Position numbers and translations under genes: made by a program. 22,657 nucleotides of DNA, from IMG/VR virus record IMGVR_UViG_3300036944_001614, positions 1 to 22,657 of that record; one strand, written 5' to 3'. The notes beneath the pieces were generated by a model. The model made no database searches and was not told the origin of the DNA. It was given only the letters and a program-made list of their open reading frames with translations. This document shows positions 9,062 to 22,657 of this stretch, in pieces; the first letter of the stretch is position 1, and each line of letters starts with the position of its first letter. This stretch comes from a virus.

Positions 9062-9604
9062 ATGGAACTGTTTAGCACTGAGCGCGCCCGCTTTGCAGCC
9101 AACACACTCCTCGCTGTAGAGATTTGCTTCGGGACGCTGTCCTTCTGGTCTCACGCCTTCGAGCAAGGCCAGCTGGTCCACTTCGTTGTCGCATTCCTTC
9201 TGACCCTCACCTTCGGGTCGATCTCCATCCTCGCCGCTGGCGTCATCGTTCGCGCTGTCGCCGCGCACCAGGCCGAGCAGAAGATCACCGGCGCCCTCGT
9301 CGCCTTCTGCGGCGCCGTGGTGGCGATGATCGGCGGGTTCATGACCTGGCACGGCCTCACATGGGCCGATGCTCAGGCCAACCTCATCCCCGGCGAGCAG
9401 CTAGACTGGCTGCTCATCCCCGCCGCGGCGATGCTCTCCGGCCTCAACCTCGTGGCGATCTACGTGTTCTGCCGCGAACTGAAGCCGGCGGCGGCCCGCC
9501 AGCCGCAACTCGTCCATTTCCCTGTTGATGGCGAGCCGGCGAAAAACGCGGCGGCGCAACAGCTGGCCCGCGATGGCTGGAAGAAGCGCCGCGCCAACGG
9601 CTGA
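9062..9604 (+). CDS. Four-helix integral membrane protein
   Basis: This is a 180-residue protein with about four membrane segments (near 12-30, 38-63, 74-95 and 118-138) and a basic cytoplasmic tail (QQLARDGWKKRRANG). The start was placed at ATG 9062, which begins MELFSTERARF before the first helix; an open frame extends to 9017. The GAGG ribosome site at 9046 can pair with CCTC just before the start, a short 4-bp stem that might damp translation. A strong terminator follows 16 bases after the stop, so it is probably a single-gene unit. No family is recognised. Confidence 0.7.
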   Translation: MELFSTERARFAANTLLAVEICFGTLSFWSHAFEQGQLVHFVVAFLLTLTFGSISILAAGVIVRAVAAHQAEQKITGALVAFCGAVVAMIGGFMTWHGLTWADAQANLIPGEQLDWLLIPAAAMLSGLNLVAIYVFCRELKPAAARQPQLVHFPVDGEPAKNAAAQQLARDGWKKRRANG

Positions 9605-9620
9605 CGATCTGGAACCGACC

Positions 9621-9650
9621 AAGCCCCGCCCTCACCCGGCGGGGCTTTTT
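9621..9650 (+). terminator. Strong rho-independent terminator
   Basis: The 10-bp perfect stem AAGCCCCGCC/GGCGGGGCTT (9621-9630 with 9638-9647) has a 7-base loop and a T-tract to 9650. It ends the membrane-protein gene and insulates the nuclease/ParA operon that follows. Confidence 0.93.
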
Positions 9651-9727
9651 CGTTGTGGGTGGCGCGCGCGAACGGGGTGGACGAATACGGACAGCTTGCG
9701 CATGGTGCGAATTCTGGAGGGGGCGGG

Positions 9728-10315
9728 TTGGAAATCACCGTTGAGCGCGAACTGTATCTGCCGCTGCGGCGCTTTCTCGATATGCGCTTTCGGCTCATGC
9801 TCGGCAGGCGGTTGCACGCATCCCCGCCACAGATCTTTGCTGAGGAAGTGGCTGACGTCGCCGGCAATGATGACGGCGTCTGGACGCGTCCCGATGTGGC
9901 CGCGCTTGCAATCCGAAGGGGGCGCTATCTGCCTTCTTGGGCCGCCGACCTGCATTCCTTCGAGGTGAAGACAGCGGCCAACCTCGATGTCCGTGGCGCA
10001 CACGAGGCAAAGTCACAGAGCCGTTTTGCGCATTACCCGTGGCTTGTTTTTCAAGCGGTCGGACGCGCGGCCGTAGACGCTCCGTTGCATGAAAACGTGT
10101 CGCTGACGGCCGATGCGCTAGGGGTTGGCATCATCACCACAACTCATCCCAACGACGTTGATAGCTGGCGCGTGCAGAGTTGGCCGCAACGCTCAGATAC
10201 TCATGACCTGACGGCCGATGCATTTGTGCAAGAACGCTTCCGGCGTAGCACCAGAGACCTGATCGTGCAGCACCTTCAGCATTTGGGATGGCCCGTAGAC
10301 GAGAGTGAGTGCTGA
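9728..10315 (+). CDS. PD-(D/E)XK-like nuclease, first gene of three-gene cassette
   Basis: This is a 195-residue protein from TTG at 9728, preceded by GGAGGGGG 5-7 bases upstream, a very good ribosome site. The frame stays open to 9653 but that upstream part is low complexity and overlaps the terminator. The segment WTRPDVAAL, then HSFEVKT about 26 residues later, fits the PD...ExK active site of the restriction-endonuclease-like fold. RGAHEAKSQSRFAHYPWLVF after it resembles the helix that follows the site in HrgA-like nucleases. No target-recognition or helicase domain is present. It overlaps the ParA gene by one base (TGATG), so the two are translationally coupled. The nuclease call rests on the motif alone. 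Confidence 0.65.
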   Translation: MEITVERELYLPLRRFLDMRFRLMLGRRLHASPPQIFAEEVADVAGNDDGVWTRPDVAALAIRRGRYLPSWAADLHSFEVKTAANLDVRGAHEAKSQSRFAHYPWLVFQAVGRAAVDAPLHENVSLTADALGVGIITTTHPNDVDSWRVQSWPQRSDTHDLTADAFVQERFRRSTRDLIVQHLQHLGWPVDESEC

Positions 10316-11241
10316 TGTCTGCTCTATGGGAAGGCCAGCGCGTTCTGTCGATCGCCAACCTCAAAGGGGGGGTTGGCAAATCCACGACTGCGATGATGTT
10401 GGCGGACACGCTCTCCCTGCACCATAGATTGCGGGTGCTGCTGCTTGATCTCGACGCTCAAGGCAATGTTAGCCGGATGTTTCTGGGGAACAAGGCGCTG
10501 GAAGAGCAACGGACCGCCGGCCACACCCTGACCCGCTGGGTCAGCAGCATTGCGAAGCGCGGGCCTAACGAGCTTTTTCCGTGTCTAATCTCGGGCGCCT
10601 CGGGCCTGGTCGAGCTTCGAGGGCCGCAAGCGCCGGGCATCCGTCGCGGAAGTGTCGATCTGCTGGCGGCCAGCCCTGAGCTTCGTTTTGCGGAGCTTGA
10701 ATTCGACCATAAGCGGCACGACGGGAAGAATGAGCACGCGCCGCGCATCGCGATGGCGGCGGAGTTGCGGGACGGTATCCGAACACTCGGCGCCGGCATC
10801 GATCTGGTAATCTTCGACTGCCCGCCGGGGTTCACAACTCTCGCGCAGGCGGCGCTCAGCATCTCAGACGCGATCATCTCGCCGATGCATGTTGAATTGC
10901 TGTCGCTGTGGAGCGTGCAGGCCTTTCGCAAGTACGGGCTGGTCGAAACTCTGAAGTGTTGGCGCCCCGAGGCGCATCGCATCCTCTACACCCGCGTCAA
11001 GCGCCAAGGCGCAACGGAGGAGAAGGCTCAGATCCGCAAGCGCGCTCGGGAGGACGGCTTCCAGCCATTCGCGACGGACATCAAAGACGTCTCGCACGCA
11101 CACAAGTGGACCCATAGGCCCGCGTTCGACAGTTTTGAAACCTTCTCGCGTAAGTACGGGCCGGTCGCCGGCGACGTCAAAAAACTCGGGGCAGAGGCCG
11201 CCCAATTCATCGTTTCAGCCACAGCTTCAGCGGAGGCCTAA
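10315..11241 (+). CDS. ParA/MinD-type Walker ATPase
   Basis: This is a 308-residue SIMIBI-class ATPase. The deviant Walker A motif is KGGVGKST (17-24) with the signature lysine K17. Walker A' is DLDAQGN (45-51), and Walker B lies in DLVIFDCPPG (about 163-172). Family members dimerise on ATP and often move DNA or protein cargo on the nucleoid. Here there is no ParB gene and no obvious parS, so plasmid-type partition is unlikely; the partners are a nuclease-like protein and a small protein. ATG 10315 overlaps the upstream stop by one base; the downstream gene starts 2 bases after the stop. The insert at about 125-150 (FDHKRHDGKNEHAPRIAM) is charged and may be a partner-binding loop. Confidence 0.92.
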   Translation: MSALWEGQRVLSIANLKGGVGKSTTAMMLADTLSLHHRLRVLLLDLDAQGNVSRMFLGNKALEEQRTAGHTLTRWVSSIAKRGPNELFPCLISGASGLVELRGPQAPGIRRGSVDLLAASPELRFAELEFDHKRHDGKNEHAPRIAMAAELRDGIRTLGAGIDLVIFDCPPGFTTLAQAALSISDAIISPMHVELLSLWSVQAFRKYGLVETLKCWRPEAHRILYTRVKRQGATEEKAQIRKRAREDGFQPFATDIKDVSHAHKWTHRPAFDSFETFSRKYGPVAGDVKKLGAEAAQFIVSATASAEA

Positions 11242-11243
11242 CC

Positions 11244-11585
11244 ATGTCCGAAGATCGCACGATCTCCCCAGATCAGGCACTGCGGCGGTTACTCGATGTG
11301 ATCGCCGACGAGGCCTCAGAGAACGCTGCTTTTCGCAATCGCCTCTTGCTGGCCTTGGGCACTCCGATCCGCTTCGAGGGCGAGGAGGATATCGCGACCA
11401 TGCGCCCGCAAGACATGGTGAGGCTCTACGATGCGGAGAAGTTCAAGCGGATCTACGGACAGCTAAACGCTGCCGGGCTGAAGCGTCTGATCACCTCGAA
11501 TAATCTGGGCAGCACGTCCGACCTGCGTGGTTTGCGAGCTCCAGCGCTGCTCGATCTTCTCTGGGACCGCGCTTCTCAGGAGTGA
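11244..11585 (+). CDS. Third gene of nuclease/ParA cassette, unknown
   Basis: This is a 113-residue soluble protein. The N-terminal half is helical (PDQALRRLLDVIADEASENA). The C-terminal third (LKRLITSNNLG, then DLRGLRAPALLDLLWDRA) reads like a SAP- or Rho-N-like helix-extended-helix nucleic-acid-binding motif; this is an impression, not a domain hit. It begins two bases after the ParA stop, so it belongs to the same operon. It could be the DNA-binding or ATPase-activating partner that ParA-type proteins normally need. No family is recognised. Confidence 0.75.
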   Translation: MSEDRTISPDQALRRLLDVIADEASENAAFRNRLLLALGTPIRFEGEEDIATMRPQDMVRLYDAEKFKRIYGQLNAAGLKRLITSNNLGSTSDLRGLRAPALLDLLWDRASQE

Positions 11586-11594
11586 CTTGCGCCC

Positions 11595-11618
11595 GGAGAG
11601 GTTAGCGGCGGGGCCGGC
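11595..11618 (+). repeat. Tandem 12-base unit pair (E)
   Basis: GGAGAGGTTAGC at 11595-11606 and GGCGGGGCCGGC at 11607-11618 resemble the paired units at 12456 and at the start of repeats A, B and C. The rest of the 100-bp repeat is absent. It lies between convergent genes ending at 11585 and 11636. Confidence 0.5.
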
Positions 11619-11635
11619 TCGATGCCGGGCTCGCG

Positions 11636-11845
11636 CTAGGACAAGTCGTAGTGCAACCGACGATACTTTTCGAGTTCGGCCAAAACGACCCGCTCGACGG
11701 TCATCGCCGCTATTAACTCGACAAGCGCCTTGTCGGTGTCCGCGCTTCGGCAGGTGGAGCCGTTGGTATCGGCGATGGTGCGCTCGGCCAGCCTGATCGC
11801 GGTACGGCGTCTGTGGATCTCGCGATCGATCTCAATGGAGGTCAT
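11636..11845 (-). CDS. Small helical hypothetical protein
   Basis: This is a 69-residue protein from ATG at 11845. It is predicted to be a helical hairpin (SIEIDREIHRRRTAIRLAE and DKALVELIAAMTVERVVLAE), a shape common in small phage and plasmid proteins. The frame stays open to 12007 but the upstream part is arginine-rich and lacks a coding look; ATG at 11923 is an alternative. It converges with the nuclease/ParA cassette, 50 bases away. No family is recognised. Confidence 0.5.
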   Translation of the reverse strand: MTSIEIDREIHRRRTAIRLAERTIADTNGSTCRSADTDKALVELIAAMTVERVVLAELEKYRRLHYDLS

Positions 11846-11946
11846 CTCTGCTCGCCTTCGGGGCAGTGATAGCGCAACAACCTGAAGGCCTGATGTATTG
11901 ATGCCTGCTATTTCGATCGGCATCTCGCTGCGACCGCGGCGCGCCG

Positions 11947-12063
11947 TTAGAGCACGCCTGCCATGCGGGCGACCCCGAACAACACGAACGTCGCCACTGC
12001 GGCGCACGCTGCAAGCAGCCAGCGATCGAAGGTCGGCGGAGGATTGAGGTTGGAGTGCGGCAT
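11947..12063 (-). CDS. Tiny single-pass membrane protein
   Basis: This is a 38-residue frame starting MPHSNLNPPPTFDR, followed by one membrane helix (WLLAACAAVATFVLFGVA) and a short end. A GGTGATGG lies about 2 bases upstream of the ATG, which is close. The longer 144-residue frame in the same phase runs through repeat C and is not believed. Small one-helix proteins are frequent in mobile-element cargo, but this could be chance. The 172 bases from 12064 to 12235 hold nothing else I can support. Confidence 0.4.
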   Translation of the reverse strand: MPHSNLNPPPTFDRWLLAACAAVATFVLFGVARMAGVL

Positions 12064-12235
12064 GCCATCACCACGAAGAAGACCTGGCGACCACGATAGG
12101 TCGGCGCAACGCGTCCTCGCCCCGGCCCAACGTAAGCCCCCAGAAGAGTCCCGCCCATCTCTCACTACCCAAAGTAGGTAGCAGGCGCCGTCGGCCTCGC
12201 GGCGAGACCCAGCCATCCAGCCAAGCGCGACAGCC

Positions 12236-12335
12236 GGAGGGGTTAGCGGCGGGGTCAACCGCTGCCTCGCACATAGAAGACCAACAAAATCAGGGCAGTG
12301 TGACCGATGGCTGGCGGTGAAGGTGTCCGCCGCAG
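12236..12335 (+). repeat. Structured 100-bp repeat, copy C (candidate left attachment site)
   Basis: The units GGAGGGGTTAGC and GGCGGGGTCAAC are followed by the core CCAACAAAATCA at 12281-12292 inside a short CACA/TGTG inverted repeat, then a hairpin GGCGG/CCGCC at 12313-12331. Offsets are 45 and 32 bases, as in copies A and B. It is more diverged than A and B are from each other. It lies 170 bases before the integrase gene. Confidence 0.75.
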
Positions 12336-12387
12336 TATCTATTGACCGCCTTCGCTCACCTGCGCCCACCTTCGGCCCCATCTCTGT

Positions 12388-12426
12388 AAAATATGGGATA
12401 TTTTCGATCTGAACGCGTACGCGTTC
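12388..12426. promoter_or_regulatory. Two palindromes upstream of the integrase
   Basis: AAAATAT-GGG-ATATTTT at 12388-12404 is a perfect 7-bp inverted repeat in an AT-rich patch unusual for this region. GAACGCGTACGCGTTC at 12411-12426 is a perfect 16-base palindrome. Both lie 80-120 bases before the integrase start. They may be promoter, operator or recombination sites. Confidence 0.5.
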
Positions 12427-12455
12427 TGGTGCCTTCTCCCCAAATCAGCTAATCT

Positions 12456-12479
12456 GGAGGGGTTCGCGGAGGGGTCAGC
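12456..12479 (+). repeat. Tandem 12-base unit pair (D), possible integrase arm sites
   Basis: GGAGGGGTTCGC and GGAGGGGTCAGC lie head to tail, 25 bases before the integrase start. They match the paired units that open repeats A, B and C. Tyrosine integrases of this class bind direct arm-type repeats near their gene, so these are candidates. Confidence 0.5.
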
Positions 12480-12504
12480 CAGCCGCGCGGGGCGCGAGGA
12501 CGGC

Positions 12505-13713
12505 ATGGCGGCGACGATCAATCGGTTGACGGCGAAAGAGGTGAAGGACGCCATCCAAGCGGGGTGGACGCCGGACGGCGGCGGGCTCTTCCTCGTGGTC
12601 GGCCCCAACGGGTCGAAGTCGTGGCGGTTCATCTTTCGCTGGGACGGCAAACGCCCCGAGCTCGGCCTTGGGGCCTACCCGCAAATCAGCCTGGCCGACG
12701 CCCGGCGGCGCGCCGAGGAAGCCCGCAGCCTGCTGGCCGAGCGGCCGAAGCGCGACCCCCGGGTCGTGTGGGCAGAAGCCGCGGCCGCCGGCCGGCGGAT
12801 GAAGTTCGGCGACTTCGTCGACGACTGGCTGCCTGCGCAGGTCCAGGCCTTCCGCAATCCGAAACACCGACAGCAGTGGGAGAACTCGCTCAAGACCTAT
12901 GCGGGCAAGCTTCGGCCGTTCTGGCTAGATGAGATCGACACAGAAGCGGTCCTCGACGTACTGCAACCAATCTGGGCGACCAAGCGCGAGACGGCCCAGC
13001 GCGTGCGCGGTCGCGTTGAGCGCATTCTGGACGCGGCCCGCGCTCGTGGCCTGCGATCGGGAGAGAACCCTGCCCGCTGGCGTGGCCACCTGAGCGTTTT
13101 GCTCCCTGCGCAGCGGCCGCCGCGAGAGCACTTCGCGGCGATGCCTTACGGCGACGTACCGGCCTTCATGGAGCAGCTGAAAGAGCGGCAGGCCACAACC
13201 GCCCTGTGCCTGCGGTTCATCATCCTGACCGCCGCCCGATCGTTGGAGGCGCGCGGCGCCCGCTGGGACGAGATCGACATGGCGGCGAAGCTCTGGACCA
13301 TCCCGGGCGACCGCATGAAGGCGGGTAAGCCGCACCGCGTCCCGCTGTCGGACGAAGCCATGGCGATCCTGAAGCCGCTGCATGAAGTCCGCCGCGGTGA
13401 GCTGGTCTTCCCGGGGCTCACGCCGAAGAAGCCTCTATCGGAAACGGCCTTCCGCGCACTCTTCGCGCGAGCCAACACCGCAGGCGTCACGGTGCACGGC
13501 TTCAGGTCGGCCTTCCGCGACTGGTGCGGCGAGGCGACCACGTTCCCGCGCGAGGTCGCCGAGCAGGCCCTTGCGCACAGCGTCGGCAATGCCGTTGAGC
13601 AGGCTTACCGACGCGGCGACGCGCTCGAGAAGCGCCGCAAGCTGATGGATGCGTGGTGCACCTACTGCACGACGCCGAAGCGCAGCGCGAAGGTGGTAGC
13701 GCTGCATGGCTAG
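12505..13713 (+). CDS. Tyrosine recombinase / site-specific integrase
   Basis: This is a 402-residue integrase of the P4/DUF4102 class, which inserts and excises mobile DNA at attachment sites. The N-terminal arm-binding domain is seen in RLTAKEVKDAIQAGWTPDGG and LGLGAYPQISLADAR (residues about 7-75). The core-binding domain spans about 100-200 and the catalytic domain about 215-385. The catalytic set is complete: R245 (TAARSLEARGARW), K272 (RMKAGK), H331 and R334 (HGFRSAFRDW), H358 (LAHS) and the nucleophile Y368 (AYRRGD). It is full length and looks active. The next gene overlaps its stop by 8 bases. The direct 12-base units at 12456 and the core in repeat C at 12281 are candidate binding sites. 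Confidence 0.95.
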   Translation: MAATINRLTAKEVKDAIQAGWTPDGGGLFLVVGPNGSKSWRFIFRWDGKRPELGLGAYPQISLADARRRAEEARSLLAERPKRDPRVVWAEAAAAGRRMKFGDFVDDWLPAQVQAFRNPKHRQQWENSLKTYAGKLRPFWLDEIDTEAVLDVLQPIWATKRETAQRVRGRVERILDAARARGLRSGENPARWRGHLSVLLPAQRPPREHFAAMPYGDVPAFMEQLKERQATTALCLRFIILTAARSLEARGARWDEIDMAAKLWTIPGDRMKAGKPHRVPLSDEAMAILKPLHEVRRGELVFPGLTPKKPLSETAFRALFARANTAGVTVHGFRSAFRDWCGEATTFPREVAEQALAHSVGNAVEQAYRRGDALEKRRKLMDAWCTYCTTPKRSAKVVALHG

Positions 13714-14761
13714 GAAAAAACACCAGCCAGCACCGGAGCCAGGCGTGAGGCGTGAGCTTCAGGCGCACACGCCGAAGGACACACCCGCCAAAAGTCGCCG
13801 GGAAGGCGCCGCGCTCACAGAGACTTGGCAGGAGGGGCTGAATACCCGCTCCCGGGTTCGGTACTACTCCAAATCAGATGCAGCTCTAGGCATCGCAAAG
13901 CTGGTGGATCCGTTCTCCGAACCGTCCATCTCGACGAAGATGCGGAAAACGGCGGCACCGCGGCGCAGAATTAGCGCCGATGCACAGACGAACTCGAAGG
14001 GCGAGGTCGTCGATACCAGCTATCTTCCGGAGTTCATGTGGGAAGCCCACCTCGTTGAGGGTGGAAAGGGCGGCGCCCTTCGGCGGCTGATCGAAAATGA
14101 ATGGGTACCGATGGTCTGGTCTCACTACAAGAGGGCCGGGCTGCCCCATGGCGATCTGGTCTTCCGTCAGGACCGGAGTGATGGGCGGCTCGTGGGCGAA
14201 GGCGGCGAACAGCAGCCAGCGGATTTTGATGAATTCCCAGCTTGGCGTCTGCCGGCGCTCTACCGTTCCGAAGAGGGAGCGGTCGAGAGCGTGGCAGGAG
14301 AACTGCTCTATGTTGCATGTGCATTGCGCGAAATCATCGATCCCGATGCACCGATGCTGCGCGCGCGCTTCGCAGCCGATGCCGACGACCTAGAGACATT
14401 GAGCGCGGGGGTACTCGCGGCGCGGGGCGCGGAACTATACGCAGCCCTTCAGGTGCTCAGCCCTTGGGACGGTCACCCCACGGGGAAGACTATCGTTGAA
14501 GCCGCGATCGTGGGTGCACGGCGCGACCAGAGTGTTCTGGACGAAAAGCTAGGCAAAGAGTGGCCGGCTATCACCGCGAAGTTGAAAGCCGCATACGACG
14601 CGGGCCGCATCGGCTCACTCGCGGATTACGCACGCATTGTCCAAGACGAGCTAGACCTGACCGACCTAAGGGCCGCAAAGAAGCGGGTCGAAAGTTACGA
14701 GCGCTTGGGCCTGATCGTACCGGTTAAGGGCATCCCCGGCCGCCGACCTAAACCACTTTGA
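13706..14761 (+). CDS. Integrase-linked protein of unknown function
   Basis: This is a 351-residue soluble protein. Its basic, proline-rich N-terminus (MARKKHQPAPEPG) is likely disordered. An alpha-helical centre follows (EGAVESVAGELLYVACALRE, FAADADDLETLSAGVLAARG). The C-terminus (RAAKKRVESYERLGLIVPV) is like the last helix and strand of a winged helix. The start overlaps the integrase by 8 bases, so it is translated with it. A terminator at 14764-14789 ends this two-gene unit. Integrase-coupled genes often act as directionality or control factors, but nothing in this sequence shows that. Confidence 0.75.
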   Translation: MARKKHQPAPEPGVRRELQAHTPKDTPAKSRREGAALTETWQEGLNTRSRVRYYSKSDAALGIAKLVDPFSEPSISTKMRKTAAPRRRISADAQTNSKGEVVDTSYLPEFMWEAHLVEGGKGGALRRLIENEWVPMVWSHYKRAGLPHGDLVFRQDRSDGRLVGEGGEQQPADFDEFPAWRLPALYRSEEGAVESVAGELLYVACALREIIDPDAPMLRARFAADADDLETLSAGVLAARGAELYAALQVLSPWDGHPTGKTIVEAAIVGARRDQSVLDEKLGKEWPAITAKLKAAYDAGRIGSLADYARIVQDELDLTDLRAAKKRVESYERLGLIVPVKGIPGRRPKPL

Positions 14762-14763
14762 AT

Positions 14764-14789
14764 TAGGCCCGCATGATGCGGGCCTATTT
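14764..14789 (+). terminator. Rho-independent terminator
   Basis: The 10-bp perfect stem TAGGCCCGCA/TGCGGGCCTA has a 3-base loop and is followed by TTT. It starts two bases after the stop of 13706-14761 and separates the integrase unit from the excisionase-like operon. Confidence 0.8.
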
Positions 14790-14857
14790 GCGTCGCCACC
14801 ACTCGCTCAAAGCTCCTCCCACGCAAACACTCACGTTGGCGTTCAATGGAGACAAGC

Positions 14858-15100
14858 ATGGAGACGATGACTGCCACTCGCGCCCATTCCGTGAAGGAGG
14901 CCGCGGAAATCATCGGCTGCGGCGCCACATCCGTCTACGCTGCAATCAAGGCCGGTGATCTCAAGGCCCGCAAGTACGGGCAGCGGACCTTGATCCTCGC
15001 CGATGACCTGCGCGCGTTTCTGAACAATCTCCCGGTCATGGGCGGCGACGACATTCCGCCCGTCCGCACGCCCGATCGCCGCCGCAAGCAGGCGGCCTGA
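14858..15100 (+). CDS. Excisionase/AlpA-like helix-turn-helix protein
   Basis: This is an 80-residue protein from ATG 14858 (GGAG 6 bases upstream; ATG 14846 and 14867 are alternatives). The segment SVKEAAEIIGCGATSVYAAI (about residues 11-30), then GDLKARKYGQR and ILADDLRAFLNNLP, is the MerR-like HTH_17 pattern used by excisionases and AlpA-type regulators. These bind near attachment sites or turn on satellite genes. It opens an operon of closely packed genes to 18094, and the next gene starts after 3 bases. Its position after the integrase unit matches alpA/xis in satellites. Whether it acts as excisionase or activator cannot be told. Confidence 0.85.
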   Translation: METMTATRAHSVKEAAEIIGCGATSVYAAIKAGDLKARKYGQRTLILADDLRAFLNNLPVMGGDDIPPVRTPDRRRKQAA

Positions 15101-15103
15101 CGC

Positions 15104-15544
15104 ATGACAGACAAAGAAAAACCCGAAGAGGCTGGCGGGCCTCAACGGGTTCATGATCTGCCAGCGCGAACCGGCCTAGATGACTTTGAAGATAGAGCAA
15201 TCGCCGACTGCCGCAAGGCTGCTCTACTGAAACTGGAAGCGAAGATCGCCCCTCTCCTGTCCAGTCTCGGCCTTCCCGAGTATGACGACCCGGACCGGCG
15301 CGACTGGCGCGAATTCCTCGTCCGCATCCTCACGGAAAGCGTCGTGATGGTGGTTCACGTCTCCCCCGCGGCGGGGTCGGAAGTCTACTCTCTCGCATTT
15401 CAGTTTCGCGGCGAGACTGTCCTCGACCAGCAAGCGATCACCGGGACGTTCTTCGAAATCTGCATGTTCGCCGCTGACGTCCGCATGGCGAAGGCCTGCG
15501 AGGTCAACTTCTTCGTTCCTGCCACTCCGGAGGCAGGCGCATGA
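15104..15544 (+). CDS. Small unknown protein, satellite operon
   Basis: This is a 146-residue soluble protein. It is acidic at the N-terminus, helical in the middle (DCRKAALLKLEAKIAPLLSS), then beta-rich (ESVVMVVHVSPAAGSEVYSL, AFQFRGETV). It starts 3 bases after the excisionase-like gene and overlaps the next gene by 4 bases (ATGA). No family is recognised. Its place in the early operon suggests a role in replication or control of the element, but no motif shows this. Confidence 0.65.
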   Translation: MTDKEKPEEAGGPQRVHDLPARTGLDDFEDRAIADCRKAALLKLEAKIAPLLSSLGLPEYDDPDRRDWREFLVRILTESVVMVVHVSPAAGSEVYSLAFQFRGETVLDQQAITGTFFEICMFAADVRMAKACEVNFFVPATPEAGA

Positions 15545-15903
15545 CGCAAGCCTCATACCTTTCACCCTTGCGCCTCGTTGCCGATGTGCTCGTCGCTCCC
15601 TCGGCTTTTGCCGCTTTCAAGGTCGACGACCGCTTCGCCTGCTTTGATCACATCATTCAGATCTTCCGGCGAGGGAATGGCGATTGGCACGTGGGCATCG
15701 ACCCCATTGTCGCCACCGTCGAAGACTTCCCCGAGAATGGCGCCTGTCTGATCGAATGCCACACGCTGTGGGGCGCCTGTGACAGCGCCAGTGCAATCGC
15801 TGATGCGGCGCGGAAAGGCGGCAGGTCGGCCGCTGTCATCGGATACGTGCCGGACCACGGCGCCATCGAACGTGACCAGGCGATGGCGCGGGGTCTCACA
15901 TGA
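15541..15903 (+). CDS. Small unknown protein, satellite operon
   Basis: This is a 120-residue protein with alternating strand and helix segments (HIIQIFRRGNGDWHVGIDPI, AACDSASAIADAARKGG-like helix near 82-97). It overlaps both neighbours by 4 bases (ATGA), which implies coupled translation. I recognise no domain. Two regions rich in Asp and Cys could bind metal but no pattern is convincing. Confidence 0.65.
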   Translation: MTQASYLSPLRLVADVLVAPSAFAAFKVDDRFACFDHIIQIFRRGNGDWHVGIDPIVATVEDFPENGACLIECHTLWGACDSASAIADAARKGGRSAAVIGYVPDHGAIERDQAMARGLT

Positions 15904-16184
15904 TCGAGCAAATCATCGTGCCCACCAGCCAGCACCCGACGCGCGAGGATTGCGGCTATCACTTCATGATCGACGCCTTCAGTGACGGGACCGCCGATCT
16001 TCTCGCGGTAAAGCACACAGGCAGCGGATGGGGCGAAAGCGGCGCGGCGGCAGAAATCATCCGCTCTGCCCGGCGCCTCGCTTGGGAGCTCTCTGACGCA
16101 GGGTATCGCGTGGTGATTTCCTACTTCCTGCAGACCGGCGCTGACTTCCCCCGTGGGCGCGCGAAGCTGCGGAGGGTCAAGTGA
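15900..16184 (+). CDS. Small unknown protein, satellite operon
   Basis: This is a 94-residue protein predicted as mixed alpha/beta, with strands FMIDAFSDGTADLLAV and YRVVISYFLQ flanking the helix AAEIIRSARRLAWELSDAG. The sequence before the C-terminus is basic (PRGRAKLRRVK). It overlaps the upstream gene by 4 bases (ATGA) and the downstream GTG frame by 4 (GTGA). No family is recognised. Confidence 0.65.
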   Translation: MIEQIIVPTSQHPTREDCGYHFMIDAFSDGTADLLAVKHTGSGWGESGAAAEIIRSARRLAWELSDAGYRVVISYFLQTGADFPRGRAKLRRVK

Positions 16185-16360
16185 GAGAGGACCCTTATCT
16201 TCCACGCTATCGCGCACTCATAGAGGAGCATCTCGCTTCCGATATCGAAGCAGCGCGCTGGGACGGAGCCAGAAGACAGCGCACCTGCCCCGCACCTGCC
16301 GCTGCCGCGCGACCCGCGCAAGCGACACCGGCCTCGGGAGGAACCCATGAGCGCCGCTAG
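16181..16360 (+). CDS. 59-residue protein in the overlapping chain
   Basis: GTG at 16181 overlaps the upstream stop by 4 bases (GTGA), and the frame ends 14 bases inside the next gene. The product starts MREDPYLPRYRALIEEHLAS, a helical region, then becomes Ala/Pro/Arg rich. It fits the chain of coupled small genes exactly, which is the main support. It is short and could be missed by standard length cut-offs. Confidence 0.5.
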   Translation: MREDPYLPRYRALIEEHLASDIEAARWDGARRQRTCPAPAAAARPAQATPASGGTHERR

Positions 16361-16778
16361 AAGCACATGCCCACGCTGCCGCGCCCAGCGGGCAGCACTC
16401 CCCATCGAAGCGCAGATCCGCATCCTCACCACCGAAGACTGGGACATTGAGCAGATGGCCTTCGTCCCCCGCCCGATGAGCCAGGAACAGGCGGTCTCGG
16501 CGGAACTGCTCACCGCTGCAATCGGCCGCTACTGGCACGCCTTCGGCGTCGAGTGCACCGGCGCCCGGCTCAAGAGCCTGCTTCTGATCCTTCGGGATCG
16601 CGCCAAGCGGATGCGCATCACCCAGCGCATCCTCGAGGCTCGCTCCGAAATCAATGCACGCGCGCGGGAGTGCTACGACCGGGGCGACCACGAAGCTGCG
16701 CACGCGATCGAGGCTGAACCGACGCCTCCCTACGAATGGCAAGACCGGGACACTGCCTGGCTGGAGGCGACCCGATGA
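16347..16778 (+). CDS. Small protein with N-terminal CxxC, satellite operon
   Basis: This is a 143-residue protein with GGGAGGA 5 bases before the ATG. An N-terminal CPRC could be half of a zinc knuckle, but no second pair is seen. The rest is mostly helical (EQAVSAELLTAAIGRYWHAF, RITQRILEARSEINARAREC). Its stop overlaps the RepA-like gene start (ATGA), as expected for a replication partner such as a helicase loader or primase cofactor. That role is inference; the family is unknown. Confidence 0.65.
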   Translation: MSAARSTCPRCRAQRAALPIEAQIRILTTEDWDIEQMAFVPRPMSQEQAVSAELLTAAIGRYWHAFGVECTGARLKSLLLILRDRAKRMRITQRILEARSEINARARECYDRGDHEAAHAIEAEPTPPYEWQDRDTAWLEATR

Positions 16779-18094
16779 CCGCTGCACACATCAACGGCTC
16801 CGCCGGACTGAATGGAAAGCGCGGGCCCGGATCGCACCGCTATCGCGACGAGACGGAGCACAACGACGCCGAGTACGAGGCGCGCGGCGCCCCGCCTCCG
16901 CCGCCCCATGGCGAGCGTCGCGACCCTCTACCGGTCGCCGCGCCTTGGGCTGGAGTTGATCCGGCAGCCATCCCCCGCCGCCGCTGGCTTTATGGCCACT
17001 ACCTGTGTCGCGGCATCGTCTCAGTGCTTGTGTCGCCGGGCGGGGTCGGCAAGTCCTCGCTGGCAATGGTCGAGGCTCTCCAGCTAGCGACTGGCTTCAA
17101 GCTGCACGACCATGCCCTTCCCCGCGGCGCAGTCCGCGCCTGGTACATCAACCTAGAGGATCCGCAGGAGGAGCTGGATCGCCGCCTTGCCGGCGCCTGC
17201 AAGCACTTCGACATCGGATACTCGGATTTGAAGGGGCGTCTGTTCATCAACTCCGGCATCGACACGCCGCTTAAGCTGGCTGCTCTGACCGCCAAGGGTC
17301 AAGGTGAAGTCGACGCGGACGCCTTCGAACACCTTGAGCAGCAGATCCGGAAGAACAAGATCGACGTCATTATTGTTGATCCGTTCGTCTCCAGCCACAG
17401 CCTGCCCGAGAACGACAACACCATGATCGACCGCTACATAAAGCGATGGGCTCAAGCGGCCTTTCGCTGTGATATCGCGGTTCAGCTTGTTCACCACACC
17501 AAGAAAGGCCCGCCAGGTCAGGAGCACGACGCGGAGAGCGCACGCGGCGCCAAGGCGTTGATCGATGCCTCCCGCTCGGTTCGGGTGCTCAACCCGATGA
17601 GCAAGGACGAAGCCGCCCAGTTGAACGTCCGTGAGGATGCGCGGCGCCTCTTTTTCCGCGCCGCAGTCGACAAGCAGAACCTCGCCCCACCAGCAGCGGA
17701 AAAGCACTGGTATCGTCTCGCCAGCGTCAACCTCGGCAACGGAACGCCGCCGCTCCACATGGACGCCGATCTTGTTGGCGTGCCGGAACGGTGGACGCCG
17801 CCGGAGCCAGAGGATCTCGTCAAAGCGGGTGACCTGGCGAGGGTGCAGGACGCCATCGACGCCGGAGAGTATGGCGCCGCCACGCAGGCAGCGGACTGGG
17901 TGGGGCACGTGATCGCGCAGGTTCTCGGCATGCCCATGGGCGACAAAGTCAGTCGGGCGCAGATCAAGCGCTTGATCGCCATGTGGGAGGGCAGCGGCGC
18001 CCTCCGCCGCGAGGAAGTCTACAGCGAAAAGAGCCGCCGGAACCGCCCCGTGATGAGGGTCGGTCGCAGGGAGGATTGCACAGTTGCGCAGTAG
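16775..18094 (+). CDS. RepA/AAA_25-type hexameric helicase ATPase
   Basis: This is a 439-residue RecA-fold ATPase of the RepA (RSF1010)/AAA_25 family, which forms ring helicases for plasmid, phage and island replication. Walker A is SPGGVGKSS (87-95), Walker B is IDVIIVDP (196-203), and VQLVHHTKKG (about 236-245) matches the H4/sensor loop of the family. The C-terminal segment (about 365-430) looks like the winged-helix extension common in these proteins. ATG 16775 overlaps the upstream stop (ATGA); a frame start at 16736 lies inside the previous gene and was rejected. Its 3' end and the following 200 bases carry an iteron-like TGCGCA array. No primase domain is present, so host or helper primase would be needed. 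Confidence 0.88.
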   Translation: MTAAHINGSAGLNGKRGPGSHRYRDETEHNDAEYEARGAPPPPPHGERRDPLPVAAPWAGVDPAAIPRRRWLYGHYLCRGIVSVLVSPGGVGKSSLAMVEALQLATGFKLHDHALPRGAVRAWYINLEDPQEELDRRLAGACKHFDIGYSDLKGRLFINSGIDTPLKLAALTAKGQGEVDADAFEHLEQQIRKNKIDVIIVDPFVSSHSLPENDNTMIDRYIKRWAQAAFRCDIAVQLVHHTKKGPPGQEHDAESARGAKALIDASRSVRVLNPMSKDEAAQLNVREDARRLFFRAAVDKQNLAPPAAEKHWYRLASVNLGNGTPPLHMDADLVGVPERWTPPEPEDLVKAGDLARVQDAIDAGEYGAATQAADWVGHVIAQVLGMPMGDKVSRAQIKRLIAMWEGSGALRREEVYSEKSRRNRPVMRVGRREDCTVAQ

Positions 18095-18287
18095 TCAGAA
18101 AACGAACTGCGAAGGAGTGCGCAACTGCGCAAAAGCCTCCTCAGCTGCACAGTCGCGCAGTTGCGCACCCCCCTTTAGGGTGCGCCAACTGCGCACTGCG
18201 CGCAGAGAGGCGATTTACAAGGGTTTTCGCAGTCCCGTGCTCGATGGGGTAAAACCCGACTGCGCAGTGCGCGAAGTGCGCGCAGTT
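18077..18287. repeat. TGCGCA iteron-like array, candidate replication origin
   Basis: The region carries at least five clusters of the hexamer TGCGCA and variants, often paired as TGCGCAACTGCGCA: 18077-18092, 18118-18131, 18146-18167, 18181-18204 and 18261-18287. The first cluster overlaps the last codons of the RepA-type gene. The gap 18095-18330 has no gene. Position and repetition fit a replication origin with iterons; binding by the RepA-type protein is inferred. Confidence 0.6.
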
Positions 18288-18330
18288 CTCAGGTCGCAAT
18301 GCCCCGGCTCTACGCCCGTGGGGGCATCCC

Positions 18331-18771
18331 ATGACTGACGGAAACAGCGGCGGGAAATCGGGTCGTGGGACACGCGGCCGGTTCGCGAAGGGAAACCCCG
18401 GCAAGCCCTACGGATCGCGCCACAGGGCGACGCAGGCCGTTCAGGCGCTGCTGGATGGCGAGGCCGAGGCCCTGACGCGCAAAGCGGTCGAGATGGCCAT
18501 GGAGGGCGACCCCACGGCCCTGCGGCTGTGCATCGAGCGGCTGTCACCGCCGCCAAAGGATGCGCCCGTCACCTTCCCCCTTCCCCGCATGGATCGATCA
18601 GCAGACGCCGCCGGCGCGGTCGCCGCAGTGGTGGCGGCGGTCGCCTGCGGAGACCTCACCCCAACGCAGGGCGAGCGCATCGCAGGGATCATCGAAGCCT
18701 GGCGGCGGGCCGTGGAGACAACCGAACTGGCGGCGCGGGTGGAAGCCCTCGAAGCCGCAGCGCAGCGATAG
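18331..18771 (+). CDS. DUF5681 protein, terminase-small-subunit-like
   Basis: This is a 146-residue protein. The N-terminal TRGRFAKGNPGKPYGSRH is the hallmark of DUF5681, found in alphaproteobacterial prophages next to terminase genes. The helical region after it (AVQALLDGEAEALTRKAVEM, then DPTALRLCIERLSPP) fits a small-terminase-like or DNA-binding helical fold. No large terminase follows. In satellites a TerS-like protein redirects the helper's packaging machinery to the satellite genome; that is a plausible role here. The ribosome site is weak (GGGGG at about 7 bases). Confidence 0.8.
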   Translation: MTDGNSGGKSGRGTRGRFAKGNPGKPYGSRHRATQAVQALLDGEAEALTRKAVEMAMEGDPTALRLCIERLSPPPKDAPVTFPLPRMDRSADAAGAVAAVVAAVACGDLTPTQGERIAGIIEAWRRAVETTELAARVEALEAAAQR

Positions 18772-18780
18772 GAGGCCTGC

Positions 18781-18978
18781 ATGCTTGAGAAGCGCATCAC
18801 ACGGCTGGAGGAGGCGGCGCCGCCGCCTCCGCGAAAGCCGGGCCCATCGGCAGCCGCGATCATGCTGGACCGCGTCGCTGCCCTCAAATGGCTCAGCGGA
18901 ACCCGGGACCTGACGCCCAATGAACGGCGCGAGCAGGACGACTTGTGGGCAACCTTGAAGGGCGCTCCACGATGCTGA
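18781..18978 (+). CDS. Tiny coiled-coil protein, paralogue of next gene
   Basis: This is a 65-residue protein with a perfect AGGAGG 6 bases upstream. It opens MLEKRITRLEEAAPPPPRKP, a short coiled coil followed by proline-rich linker, then a helical end (TPNERREQDDLWATLKG). The start matches the pattern MLxxRIxRLE of the next gene, so the two may be paralogues. It lies between the TerS-like gene and the tape-measure gene, the place where tail-assembly chaperones sit in phages, but it has no similarity I can see to those. Confidence 0.65.
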   Translation: MLEKRITRLEEAAPPPPRKPGPSAAAIMLDRVAALKWLSGTRDLTPNERREQDDLWATLKGAPRC

Positions 18979-19187
18979 AATCCCGGATCCTTCGGCTCGA
19001 AGTCAGCGCACCGCGCGCCCCCCGGCCTATGTGGTCGATGATGACCGGCGAAACCGCCGATCCGTTCGCCGCCCGCGATGCGCTGCTCCTGCGCGCACAG
19101 GCGGAGCCGCTTGGCCCTGAAGACGCCGCCGAACTCGCCCGCCTCGAGCGGGCAATCGACCTCTACGACATGGCGATGGCGATCTGA
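18972..19187 (+). CDS. Tiny coiled-coil protein, paralogue of previous gene
   Basis: This is a 71-residue protein from ATG 18972, which overlaps the upstream stop by 7 bases; a GTG at 18945 is less likely. It opens MLKSRILRLEVSAPRAPRP, the same plan as the previous gene, and ends with a helical part (PEDAAELARLERAIDLYDMA). The tape-measure start is 45 bases after the stop. Possible roles include a tape-measure partner or chaperone, but no motif supports one. Confidence 0.6.
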   Translation: MLKSRILRLEVSAPRAPRPMWSMMTGETADPFAARDALLLRAQAEPLGPEDAAELARLERAIDLYDMAMAI

Positions 19188-19216
19188 GCCCGCCGCCCTC
19201 CCCACCCCTCCTCAAC

Positions 19217-19483
19217 CGAGAAAGCCCCACCCATGAAAACCCAAGGCGCCAAGGTCGGCAGTGTCTTCCTCGAAGTCACCGCCAATTCGGACAACTTCAA
19301 GCGGGTGATGGCGGAGACCGATGCGCAGACCAAGCGCACCGCCGCCAGCATGCGGGAGGCGATGGCCAAGTCGACGGCCGAGACCAAACGGTTCGGCGAA
19401 CAGATGCGAACGACCATGAACCGCAGCGCGGTCGAGACGCGGGGCCTGACCGGATCGCTTCACGGGCTGCATGGCGTCCTCGC
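19217..19483 (+). repeat. Direct repeat, right copy (5' end of tape-measure gene)
   Basis: Nearly identical to 1-267, including the 16 bases before the start codon. The two copies are in the same orientation and 19,216 bases apart, so recombination between them would delete everything between. Confidence 0.95.
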
Positions 19484-21734
19484 CCTCCTCGGCGGCGGCG
19501 CGGCAATCGCCAAGTTCAACGAGCTGGCGGACACGTTCAGCCTGATGCGCTCCCGGATCCGCCTGGTGACGGCCGAGGGCGAGAACATGCTGGAGATCGA
19601 AGAGAAACTGGCCCGGCAGGCCTTCATCAACCGGGCCGACCTAAAGGAGACCGTGGGGCTATACACGCGCCTCCGGCAGTCGCGCTCCGATCTCAATGAC
19701 GAGACCACCCGGAACCTCGTCGACAAGTGGTCGAAGTCCCTCATCATCAGCGCATCCAGTGCGCAGGAGGCGGCCTCATCAACCCAGCAATTCGCGCAGG
19801 CGATGGCGGCCGGCATCCTGTCGGGTCAGGAACTGCGTTCGGTGATCCAAGGCAACAGCGCATTCGCGGTCTACCTCGCCAAGGGCCTCGGGGTGACAAC
19901 CGGGGCGCTCAAGCAGATGGGCGAGGAAGGAAAGCTTACCGTCGACACCATCATCGGCGCCCTGAAGGCCTCCGGCGGCGCCATCGAGCACGACTTCGCC
20001 AAGAAGGCCCTCACAGTTCACCAGGCGCTCACCAACGTGGAAACGGCGACCATCCGGGTGCTGGGATCGATCGACCAGGCCTTCGGCCTCTCCAGCGCCA
20101 ACGCCGAGTGGCTCAACAGCATGGCCGGCGCCCTGAACGACCTGACCATCGCCATGCAGGGGCCGATCAAGGAAGCCGAGGTCGCCGTCGAGAAGCTCTC
20201 CGCCGCGAACATGTCGATCAAGGCCGACACCGAAAGCCTCGTCCACCTGCATGAAAACCTGAGCAAGGCCATTGCCGACGGCGGCGAGGCGGCGAAGCTT
20301 GCGGCCACCGCCGAAATCGCCGCCGTGAACCAGCGCATCGCGAAGAACAAGGAACTCGCCGTCGTCTACCGGGCTCAGGCGCTGGCGAAGCGCATCGAAG
20401 CCGAGCAGCAGCTCAATGATCGCTTCACCCGCCGCAACCTCGGCTCGATGATGTCCGACTTCGACGTCCAGTCAGCCGACGCCCCACTGAATGCCCGCGG
20501 CGAGAGTGTCGCCTCAGTCTTCGGACGCTTCCCCGCGCAGCGTCTGGGCAAGGAAGCCGAGATCACACGCCGCTTCGGAAATCCGGAGCAGCGACTGCAG
20601 GCCATACTTGCGCAGATCGATCGCGACACGACGAACAACAAGCCGCTGAACAATGCGCAGAAGATGGTCCTGCAGTTCGCAAGCGACGTGGCGGACCTCA
20701 CGACGCGCATCAGTGCCGCGAAGGACATGCTCGATGCCCTGAAAGACGGCGGTACGCTGCCCGTGCCCGACGCCAGCGGCGGCACTGGCAACACGGACAA
20801 CCTGCCAGGCGGCGACCTGCCGAAGGCGATCCGCGAGCTGGCCGGCTACTACACGGCGGCCGAGCAGTACGAGCGAAGCCTTGCCGACATCCGCAAGGAA
20901 GCGGCCAGCGGCGCAGTCGGGGCCAACCGCGCCATTGTGCAGGCGATGATGGACTATCTCGACGCCGGCGGTGACGTGCGGCGCGTCCTAGAGGATATCA
21001 AGGCCCTGTCGGGCAGCCTGCTGGATCCGGCAAGCATCGACCTGATCAATGCCTTCGTAGCCGCGGCGACGGCCGTGTCGTCGGAAATGGACGGCGCCGG
21101 ACAGTCCTCTGGGGGGCGCCGCCGGACGAGTGCACTCGGCGGGGTCGCAACGGAGAAGACGCCCACCTTCGCGGAAGAGACCTGGTCGACCTACGAACAG
21201 CGGGTGGCGGACGCCACCAAGCGCGGCCTCATGAGCGCGATTGAAACAGGCGACTGGGGCGACGCATTCCAGCAGGTGCTCACTGACAGCCTGCGGGAAG
21301 CCCTCAGCAACGCGATAGACGTGCTGTTCAATGCGCTTGCCCAGATCGACTGGAACGGCGGCGGTGACAAAGGCACTGGCTGGGGTGGCTTCTTCGACAT
21401 GGTCGGCTCGTCACTGGCCGGATGGTCGCCCCGCGCAAGCGGCGGCCCGGTCAGCGCCGGCAGGCCCTATCGTGTCGGCGAACTCGGTTCGGAATGGTTC
21501 GTGCCCAACACCAGCGGCTTCATCGTCCCGAACATGTCTCACGGCGGCATGTCCGGCAGCGCGCTCAGCGCGAGGACGCCCGTCAGCATCGGCGGCCTGC
21601 ATGTCACCGTGAACGGCAACGCCGACAACGCAGCCATCAACCAAATTGGTGAGAAGCTCGAAGCCTTCGGGCGCCGGTTGCCTCAGATGATCGATGCAAG
21701 GGTTCAGGACAGGCAGAAGCGGGGGGCATACTAG
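19233..21734 (+). CDS. Phage tail tape-measure protein, copy 2
   Basis: This is an 833-residue tape-measure protein. Residues 1-83 are almost identical to copy 1. The conserved domain follows, with GQELRSVIQGNSAFAVYLAK and GALKQMGEEGKL. The centre (about 405-645) differs entirely from copy 1: it lacks the three 72-74-residue repeats and has instead helical segments such as NAQKMVLQFASDVADLTTRI and AAEQYERSLADIRKEAA. The C-terminal 190 residues again match copy 1, including PYRVGELGSEWFVPN near 744 and the end DARVQDRQKRGAY. No tail genes surround it. It follows the TerS-like gene and two small genes in the candidate satellite. It may replace the helper's tape measure or help build a tail; that is inference. 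Confidence 0.93.
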   Translation: MKTQGAKVGSVFLEVTANSDNFKRVMAETDAQTKRTAASMREAMAKSTAETKRFGEQMRTTMNRSAVETRGLTGSLHGLHGVLALLGGGAAIAKFNELADTFSLMRSRIRLVTAEGENMLEIEEKLARQAFINRADLKETVGLYTRLRQSRSDLNDETTRNLVDKWSKSLIISASSAQEAASSTQQFAQAMAAGILSGQELRSVIQGNSAFAVYLAKGLGVTTGALKQMGEEGKLTVDTIIGALKASGGAIEHDFAKKALTVHQALTNVETATIRVLGSIDQAFGLSSANAEWLNSMAGALNDLTIAMQGPIKEAEVAVEKLSAANMSIKADTESLVHLHENLSKAIADGGEAAKLAATAEIAAVNQRIAKNKELAVVYRAQALAKRIEAEQQLNDRFTRRNLGSMMSDFDVQSADAPLNARGESVASVFGRFPAQRLGKEAEITRRFGNPEQRLQAILAQIDRDTTNNKPLNNAQKMVLQFASDVADLTTRISAAKDMLDALKDGGTLPVPDASGGTGNTDNLPGGDLPKAIRELAGYYTAAEQYERSLADIRKEAASGAVGANRAIVQAMMDYLDAGGDVRRVLEDIKALSGSLLDPASIDLINAFVAAATAVSSEMDGAGQSSGGRRRTSALGGVATEKTPTFAEETWSTYEQRVADATKRGLMSAIETGDWGDAFQQVLTDSLREALSNAIDVLFNALAQIDWNGGGDKGTGWGGFFDMVGSSLAGWSPRASGGPVSAGRPYRVGELGSEWFVPNTSGFIVPNMSHGGMSGSALSARTPVSIGGLHVTVNGNADNAAINQIGEKLEAFGRRLPQMIDARVQDRQKRGAY

Positions 21735-21793
21735 GGCGACCGCCCGGCTATGCCGCGCACGTCGTCCCCATAGAGAGCGGCGCTGACGCTCAG

Positions 21794-21889
21794 ATGATGG
21801 TGGAGGGGCTGCGCGCAAACCTTGCCCGCATAGACAACGCCCTTGCAGATTGTGCTATGTTTAGTGGCAAGCAATGGGGGCTGAGATGA
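21794..21889 (+). CDS. Possible 31-residue ORF coupled to next gene
   Basis: The frame starts MMVEGLRANLARIDNALADC, an amphipathic helix, and its stop overlaps ATG 21886 by 4 bases (ATGA). The overlap is the main support. No clear ribosome site is seen. The 59 bases between the tape-measure stop and this frame hold nothing else. Confidence 0.3.
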   Translation: MMVEGLRANLARIDNALADCAMFSGKQWGLR

Positions 21890-22113
21890 CTGGTTTTGTT
21901 CGACTGCACCCCGTGGATAGTCACCCTCCAATCCTGTTGAACGTCTCCGAAATTCTCTTGGTCTGCCCCCGAGCTGACGACGGATCACTGGAGGGATCGC
22001 TTGTCTTCGTAAGACCTTCCCATATCGCTCCGGAAAATCTGGCGTTTGAGGTGACAGAGGGCTTGGGGGCCATAGCTCGAATGTTGGGCGCTGTTGATGC
22101 CAAAGGGACCTGA
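21886..22113 (+). CDS. Small beta-rich hypothetical protein
   Basis: This is a 75-residue protein from ATG 21886, with GGGGG 6-8 bases upstream and a 4-base overlap with the preceding frame; ATG 21874 is in the same frame. The order FVRLHPVDSHPPILLNVSEI, then LVFVRPSHI, then AFEVTEGLGAIARML resembles the small FlbD-like proteins (strand, 'lvN.d.I', strand, V.e....i) common in bacteria and phages. The fit is by pattern only. It is the last intact gene before repeat B. Confidence 0.6.
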   Translation: MTGFVRLHPVDSHPPILLNVSEILLVCPRADDGSLEGSLVFVRPSHIAPENLAFEVTEGLGAIARMLGAVDAKGT

Positions 22114-22363
22114 AGGACAGAAGCGCCCAGCTGACGTTCTCAGCAACGCGATCAACGTGGCTCGCGCTGGCGACAAGGGGTATTGGCCCTCGTCGTCACT
22201 GAGCCGCCGCTGCGCGCAGTGGAGGGGCTGTCGGCGGGGTTGCCAGGTCGCGCCTCGCCAGCACGCCAACAAAATCAGCACGGTGCTGATCTTTGCAGGC
22301 GGACGCCGGGTCCGCCGCAGCACCGATCGGCGGGCAGCCCGCTTCGCCGCACCCTTCCAATGA
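22097..22363 (+). pseudogene. Truncated KRPADV-family gene running into repeat B
   Basis: ATG 22097 opens MPKGPEGQKRPADVLSNAIN, a recognisable start of a small conserved alphaproteobacterial family (K.GP.G.KRPADVIGNAV..A.IATGE). Similarity stops at about residue 25 (VAR, then AGDKGY in place of IATGE). The frame then runs through repeat B to a stop at 22363, giving an implausible arginine-rich tail. It overlaps the upstream gene by 17 bases. The break lies about 45 bases before repeat B, as if element insertion or excision removed the 3' part. No matching 3' half is seen elsewhere in the window. Confidence 0.55.
22221..22330 (+). repeat. Structured 100-bp repeat, copy B (candidate right attachment site)
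   Basis: Units GGAGGGGCTGTC and GGCGGGGTTGCC are followed by the core CCAACAAAATCA at 22266-22277 inside a 6-bp inverted repeat CAGCAC/GTGCTG, and the hairpin GGCGGAC/GTCCGCC at 22298-22316. Spacing of 45 and 32 bases equals copies A and C. It begins 487 bases after the tape-measure 2 stop; copy A begins 482 bases after the tape-measure 1 stop. Confidence 0.85.
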
Positions 22364-22433: not shown

Positions 22434-22657
22434 ATGACGGGTAAGTTCGTCTGGGCACGCTTCTGGGCGAAGCAGCTCGATGTCTTCATCTTCGGTTTCG
22501 TATGGGCCATCGTATCGATCACGCCCGCAATCTTCTGGGCCGGACTACTGATCTATCCGTTCTGGGAAGCAATGATGGTTTCAGCGTCAGGCACTTCATT
22601 CGGACGTGTTCCGTTCGGTCTACGCATTCGAGACGCCAAAACGGGGGTGAAGCCTTC
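22434..22657 (+). CDS. RDD-family membrane protein, 5' part only
   Basis: The reading frame starts at ATG 22434, with CGGGGGA about 5 bases upstream, and is cut by the window end after 74 codons. The visible part begins MTGKFVWARFWAKQLDVFIF, typical of RDD proteins (Arg...Asp in the first helix), then a hydrophobic stretch (VWAIVSITPAIFWAGLLIYP) and SGTSFGRVPFGLRIRDAKTG, the loop that normally ends in the family's G..lfGl.v.d..G.. motif. RDD proteins are integral inner-membrane proteins, some acting in ion transport. The gene may be the chromosomal flank of the element array or part of another element. Confidence 0.75.
   Translation, partial: MTGKFVWARFWAKQLDVFIFGFVWAIVSITPAIFWAGLLIYPFWEAMMVSASGTSFGRVPFGLRIRDAKTGVKP

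Follow-up and report, generated by a model that had tools for sequence, protein, structure and literature searches.

A satellite-like integrative element with its own tape-measure gene and a possible route to chimeric siphophage tails

Described satellites and the element at 12.24–22.33 kb

The closest described counterparts of the element reported here are the PLE satellites of Vibrio cholerae, which carry a tape-measure gene (tmp) together with a tail assembly chaperone gene (tac) (PMC12987554). The chaperone is conserved across PLEs, some of which also encode a baseplate hub (PMC12987554). In 2026, transmission electron microscopy, western blot and mass spectrometry demonstrated that PLE11 virions contain the PLE tape-measure protein (TMP) in chimeric tails with the helper tube; PLE11 tails are 10 nm shorter, and deletion of tmp lowers transduction by 96–99.9% in PLE11, PLE1 and PLE4 (PMC12987554). 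The PLE11 TMP is only 20% identical to that of its helper ICP1, whose tail is contractile, and putative tmp genes also occur in PLE-like elements and in capsid-forming phage-inducible chromosomal islands (cf-PICIs) (PMC12987554). Here, we describe element C, an integrative island of ~10 kb that spans, by open reading frame (ORF), Pfam and PHROG scans, about 12.24–22.33 kb of the linear IMG/VR virus record IMGVR_UViG_3300036944_001614. The complete record of 22,657 bp is the window analysed throughout, and the source of the island is probably an alphaproteobacterium. We lean slightly toward reading element C as a satellite-like integrative element with an alternative TMP, which most likely would build chimeric tails on a siphophage helper.

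Like the PLEs, element C is integrative and encodes its own alternative TMP. The PLEs differ in pairing a chaperone with tmp and in having a contractile-tailed helper, whereas the conserved regions of the TMP of element C are 67–74% identical to a phage-type TMP. Given the PLE and cf-PICI precedents, the suggestion of the initial annotation that such a combination may be undescribed does not hold as a principle. Our literature searches, conducted mostly outside subscription journals, returned no TMP-carrying satellite from alphaproteobacteria.

Gram-negative PICIs of the EcCICFT073 type share with element C a left-hand integrase, an AlpA-like regulator and a replication module with an origin, and sometimes terS (PMC6092414). 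Integrase, replication module and master regulator stand in the conserved order expected of PICIs (PMC6092414), the regulator being the AlpA/excisionase-like helix-turn-helix (HTH) protein by assignment only. The interval between the core repeats at 12281 and 22266 measures 9,985 bp, slightly under the size of about 12–15 kb in the PICI criteria; EcCICFT073-type islands span about 10–15 kb (PMC6092414). Unlike EcCICFT073-type PICIs, element C has a TMP, encoded by the TMP_3 gene at 19233–21734, and a RepA-like helicase without a recognised primase. PICI criteria include the absence of phage structural genes (PMC6092414); a TMP gene is structural, and we therefore do not class the island among the PICIs. 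The satellite-like anatomy with an orphan TMP, as proposed in the initial annotation, is supported by the sequence and by independent elements built in the same way; this support does not extend to PICI membership. Capsid-forming PICIs build capsids of their own and depend on the helper for tails only. Element C, unlike them, has no portal, capsid, HNH or large terminase gene, and no part of their set (own portal, capsid, terminase) was recognised in the window.

Orphan tape-measure genes and their possible use

The TMP gene of element C (19233–21734, + strand) encodes an intact protein of 833 aa that matches TMP_3 (4e-38) and PHROG 3519 (8e-48). A second TMP of 880 aa (17–2659, + strand; TMP_3 2e-41) lies at the end of a neighboring element, element A. 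Both proteins exceed the curated cut-off of TMP_3 (PF20155), with 131 and 142 bits versus 41, and neither gene has an internal stop. As originally proposed, the 833-residue gene is complete, and no other structural or packaging family was matched in the tested island ORFs. Specifically, PHROG and Pfam scans of element C recognised no capsid, portal, large terminase, tail tube, tail tip or lysis gene. The 880-aa TMP is followed on its right by 16 kb without a tail gene up to the next orphan TMP, and the 833-aa TMP is followed by an att-like repeat and then by an RDD-family gene. In phage contig L004, which encodes a related TMP, and in ordinary prophages, putative tail-tip genes come immediately after the TMP.

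This arrangement bears on whether the record is simply a piece of an ordinary prophage or phage-plasmid whose head and tail genes lie beyond it, an explanation that we regard as improbable. It would account for a linear record that begins 16 bp before a TMP and that IMG/VR classes as a virus. However, the att-like repeat and the unknown or RDD genes that follow the TMPs set them apart from L004 and the prophages, and neither a tail-tube nor a chaperone gene was recognised ahead of the 833-aa TMP. Head and tail genes just outside the island, raised as an objection in the initial annotation, were not seen on the readable sides; the DNA left of position 1 is beyond the record.

The two TMPs are 63% identical overall, with identity distributed unevenly along the chain: 98% in residues 1–86, 77% in residues 143–304, 31% with large gaps in residues 421–640, and 76% in residues 641–833. 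For the same four regions, dN/dS is about 0.11, 0.22, 0.70 and 0.21. The value of dS is 0.15 in residues 1–86 (17–274 and 19233–19490 of the window) versus 0.6–1.25 elsewhere, and this low value points to recent exchange or recombination between the copies there. L004 has a TMP of the same type, 74% identical to the 833-aa TMP in residues 143–304 and 67% identical in the C-terminal part. The L004 genes after the TMP, read by eye from their ORFs, look like those for DUF2460, DUF2163 and NlpC/P60-like tail proteins, and the order DUF2460-DUF2163-NlpC/P60 is common in alphaproteobacterial siphophages. In phage 80alpha, the TMP contacts the tail-completion protein of the neck through its N-terminus and Tal, at the tail tip, through its C-terminus (PMC11661146). 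By analogy, conserved ends around a variable rod would be expected of a TMP that fits the neck and tip of its helper.

Exchange between the copies, visible in the low dS of the first 258 nt, also suits a different history, in which the TMP is a chance acquisition from prophages, retained as a passenger or as homology for phage exchange. Related TMP genes are indeed present in prophages: 7 of 385 and 5 of 220 genomes matched, most of them in ordinary-looking prophages. Single-protein scans of the genome and viral collections with the TMP returned one relative, L004, and the 220 genomes, from the order of Alphaproteobacterium G184, held no close TMP. A chance passenger is quite unlikely in our view, given two intact full-length ORFs at the same position relative to the att-like repeats in two elements, the operonic fit of the gene, and the recurrence of TMPs in unrelated islands.

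The initial annotation had suggested that the TMP controls helper tail length. The proteins measure 833, 880 and, for L004, about 840 aa (assuming a missing N-terminus of equal length), a spread of <50 residues. With a tape-measure scaling of 0.15 nm per residue, the resulting tails would be only a few nm apart; tail length is therefore unlikely to be the main purpose, and we set this proposal aside.

The TMP gene belongs to one operon with a DUF5681 gene (18331–18771, + strand; 146 aa, Pfam 33.1 bits versus a cut-off of 27.5) and two small overlapping genes of the M..RI.RLE type (18781–18978 and 18972–19187, + strand; from the ORF list, no family), in which one pair of neighbouring genes overlaps and the other two pairs lie 9 and 45 bp apart. 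The DUF5681 protein possibly has a small-terminase-like role; its single-sequence AlphaFold model, with a pLDDT of 50, was uninformative on small-terminase identity. The two small genes gave no chaperone family match in PHROG or Pfam, and a divergent chaperone is conceivable. Small RLE proteins that look alike by eye stand beside DUF5681 in locus L136 and beside the TMP in locus L142.

The gene content, the intact orphan TMPs with their conserved ends, the att-like repeats and the parallel elements are seen directly; from them, we infer helper dependence, excision, packaging, TMP incorporation and a benefit along the following lines. The island would integrate via its own integrase and, after excision, would probably replicate from the RepA-like helicase and the repeat origin. 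With no capsid and no other tail genes, its particles must come from a helper, presumably a siphophage encoding an L004-type TMP. The operon described above would supply an alternative tape measure, of which the N-terminal (neck) and C-terminal (tip) parts would stay helper-compatible and the central rod would have diverged, yielding chimeric tails with helper tube and tip around the satellite TMP. The likely benefit would be that satellite particles are assembled preferentially or that tail-targeting inhibitors are evaded, and tail length would shift by only a few nm.

The position of the TMP gene at the 3' end of the island, a usual place for cargo, also suits an unpackaged integrative element whose TMP is anti-phage cargo, a decoy or dominant-negative protein that spoils the tails of L004-related phages. 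Interference with tail assembly is an established defence strategy (PMC11364771), other large genes occupy this position in a related backbone of Alphaproteobacterium G184, and, apart from DUF5681, element C has no capsid or packaging gene. We nevertheless consider such a role unlikely: known tail-targeting defences, for example Rta, are small dedicated proteins (PMC12987554), the parallel elements pair a TMP with chaperone and tail-completion genes, which suits tail building over blocking, and DUF5681 and the TMP share an operon.

The G184 locus (L250) contains the closest integrase match found (57% identity), after which an ORF and an excisionase gene (53% identity) occupy the same positions as in element C. 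The ORF has no detectable similarity to the 351-aa protein in its place in the window, and the backbone continues downstream with replication genes unlike those of element C and with unknown genes of very great length (1403 and 1775 aa), possibly defence cargo, and without a TMP.

Several points weigh against a satellite that builds chimeric tails. The G184 backbone bears other cargo and no TMP, and the TMP could therefore be exchangeable cargo, which keeps the decoy explanation alive. Searches of 385 Alphaproteobacteria, the 220 genomes of one order, a genome collection of 85,000 species and the rest of IMG/VR found nothing closely related to the island as a whole. The record is a linear fragment that points to neither its host nor a helper in the same cell, and the possible small terminase (DUF5681) is the sole pointer to packaging. 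Given the recent exchange, the identity of residues 1–86 is not pure conservation, and the purifying selection seen between the TMPs could predate the islands and stem from their time in phages.

Attachment-like repeats, record layout and other genes

An att-like repeat of 110 bp occurs in three copies with identical inner geometry, all on the + strand. The left site of element C (12236–12345) contains an arm-like repeat at 12236–12254 and a core-like repeat at 12281–12300; the right site (22221–22330) has its arm at 22221 and its core at 22266. The third copy (3141–3250; arm 3141, core 3186) marks the right end of element A, where 125 nt are 83% identical to 22209–22333. The left edge of the island proposed initially, 12236, coincides exactly with the arm-like repeat. 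In all three copies, the core CCAACAAAATCA is placed 45 bp on from the arm-like 19-mer. The arm pattern GGAGGGGYTAGCGGCGGGG matches five times in the window versus 0.07 expected by chance, and the core pattern CCAACAAAATCANNNCNGTG three times versus 0.11; the extra arm-like pattern matches lie at 12456–12474 (+ strand), directly upstream of the integrase gene, and at 11595–11613. The 3.17 Mb of other DNA examined held one arm match and no core match, and the att-like pattern had no match in viral contigs, in 385 genomes or around related integrases. The distance from the TMP stop to the arm-like repeat is 482 bp in element A and 487 bp in element C. These repeats presumably act as recombination sites.

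With repeat copies at 3.2, 12.3 and 22.3 kb, the record is probably a tandem array comprising the right end of element A, a segment B and the whole of element C. Element A is probably a sibling of element C, of which only the TMP end falls inside the record. The single island of the initial annotation is thus correctly placed at 12236–22330 but too simple, as the second TMP (17–2659) and the third att-like copy (3141–3250) had been missed. Segment B (3206–12235) covers about 9 kb between att-like copies, and Pfam and PHROG scans found neither an integrase nor a tail gene in it. It contains a ParA-like ATPase gene (10309–11241), a nuclease-like gene with a weak match (7331–7762) and many unknown genes, and may represent either host DNA separating two islands or an element that is mobilised in trans.

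From 12.2 kb, the gene order is att-like repeat, integrase, 351-aa protein, HTH excisionase, five small genes and RepA-like helicase, then repeat array, DUF5681, two small coupled genes, TMP, 79-aa ORF and att-like repeat. The genes that the initial annotation had named were all present in place, and all genes of the island are on the + strand. The P4-type tyrosine integrase (12505–13713, 402 aa) has three integrase Pfam domains (E 5e-22 to 2e-16) and is 47.5% identical to the integrase of Caulobacter phage DMCA. Its end is overlapped by the gene for the 351-aa protein (13706–14761), which has no PHROG or Pfam family, and the AlpA/excisionase-like HTH protein of 84 aa follows at 14846–15100 (Pfam HTH_17 1.1e-11; PHROG 66). 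The five small genes (15104–15544, 15541–15903, 15900–16184, 16181–16360 and 16347–16778) have no significant family.

The RepA-like helicase (AAA_25; 16736–18094, 452 aa, Pfam 7e-36) is 42% identical to a 'helicase RepA family protein' of the Methylobacterium indicum plasmid pVL1_6; as a single query against the genome and viral collections, the protein returned no relative. Just 3' of its gene lies an origin-like repeat array (18085–18297) with TGCGCAGT in both orientations. The iteron-like array noted initially was confirmed as a compact cluster: the window has five copies of the octamer TGCGCAGT/ACTGCGCA, all within 18085–18268, versus a mean of 0.04 and a maximum of 2 in Markov-simulated sequence. 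The 79-aa ORF (21874–22113) was assigned no family by PHROG or Pfam. Outside the island, the 5' part of a gene for an RDD-family membrane protein (22434–22657, + strand; PF06271, 25.8 bits versus 24.1) ends the record.

Parallel elements and tail-core replacement

An IMG/VR scan with an integrase alignment, followed by local searches, identified two further elements, L142 (10.8 kb) and L129 (11.2 kb), with integrases 53% identical to that of the window. L142 encodes an integrase, a CI-like repressor, a replication initiator, DnaB and small proteins, together with a Phage_TAC_4 chaperone (6e-20), a tail-completion protein (PHROG 169, 2e-39) and a TMP (TMP_3, 3e-59). L129 shares most of this set, its chaperone being 100%, its tail-completion protein 99% and its TMP 96% identical. 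Nothing was recognised as terminase, portal or capsid in either record; both end near the last gene, leaving the outer flanks out of view. A third parallel, plasmid pVL1_6 (L042), is complete and circular with 31.5 kb and carries a RepA-like helicase, a TMP_2 protein, two chaperone-like genes and a tail-completion-like gene; capsid, portal and terminase are absent among the PHROG families shown, and pVL1_6 is possibly a plasmid satellite. L142, L129 and pVL1_6 resemble element C in being small elements, integrase-bearing or plasmid, that have replication genes and a TMP but no capsid, portal or large terminase. They differ in having chaperone and tail-completion genes too, and their TMPs, like most of their other genes, show only a distant relationship to those of the window.

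A ~16-kb element in genome G136 (L058, contig 11, about 2700–18057) encodes an integrase 51% identical to that of the window, with a TMP_3 gene beside it. It also has a portal-like gene, a protease-capsid gene, a connector, HNH and both terminases, and no tail gene was found in it besides the TMP, a composition that fits a capsid-forming PICI carrying a TMP. Genomes G381 and G023 contain further candidate TMP elements. The one in G023 (L235 with L234) is chromosomal, with a RepA-like helicase, portal-like and minor-head-like genes, a TMP and an integrase, and may represent a satellite or else a prophage in decay.

Other candidates were rejected. An Ntn-hydrolase-like gene seen by eye directly after the orphan TMP at L058 14048–14671, L042 1344–2120 and L061 (G381) 11239–11808 shows pairwise similarity too weak to use. 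The TMP matches in G258, G403, G493, G515 and G568 lie in ordinary-looking prophages, and a 54-kb Rhodoplanes plasmid is an ordinary phage-plasmid. The Microvirga plasmids L043 and L045, of about 40 kb, encode a RepA-like helicase, a toprim protein and long unknown proteins, and perhaps represent an undescribed phage-plasmid group. By PHROG, L043 was dismissed as a TMP carrier: it has a DNA-ejection-family protein, and its long protein is without a PHROG match.

We tentatively suggest, as a possibility that we do not favor, that replacement of the tail core (a TMP with or without chaperone and tail-completion proteins) is a general satellite strategy that has arisen repeatedly among proteobacterial satellites of siphophages. 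TMP-only islands would then keep helper-compatible ends, and islands bearing chaperone and completion genes may be freer to use unrelated TMPs.

Satellites were long assumed to hijack helper tails unchanged, a rule that the PLEs broke in 2026, for a single Vibrio system whose helper has a contractile tail. The same idea appears here in small islands not known to be related to PLEs, several of them alphaproteobacterial and with a siphophage-tail signature. By structure, these elements fall into three grades: those with a TMP alone, those that add a chaperone and a tail-completion protein, and those that combine the TMP with a capsid module. The reason for a parasite to replace the interior of a tail thereby becomes testable, whether selective assembly, resistance to tail-targeting inhibitors or altered injection, and the two diverged TMPs in one array may reveal the tape-measure regions in which a fit with the helper is required.

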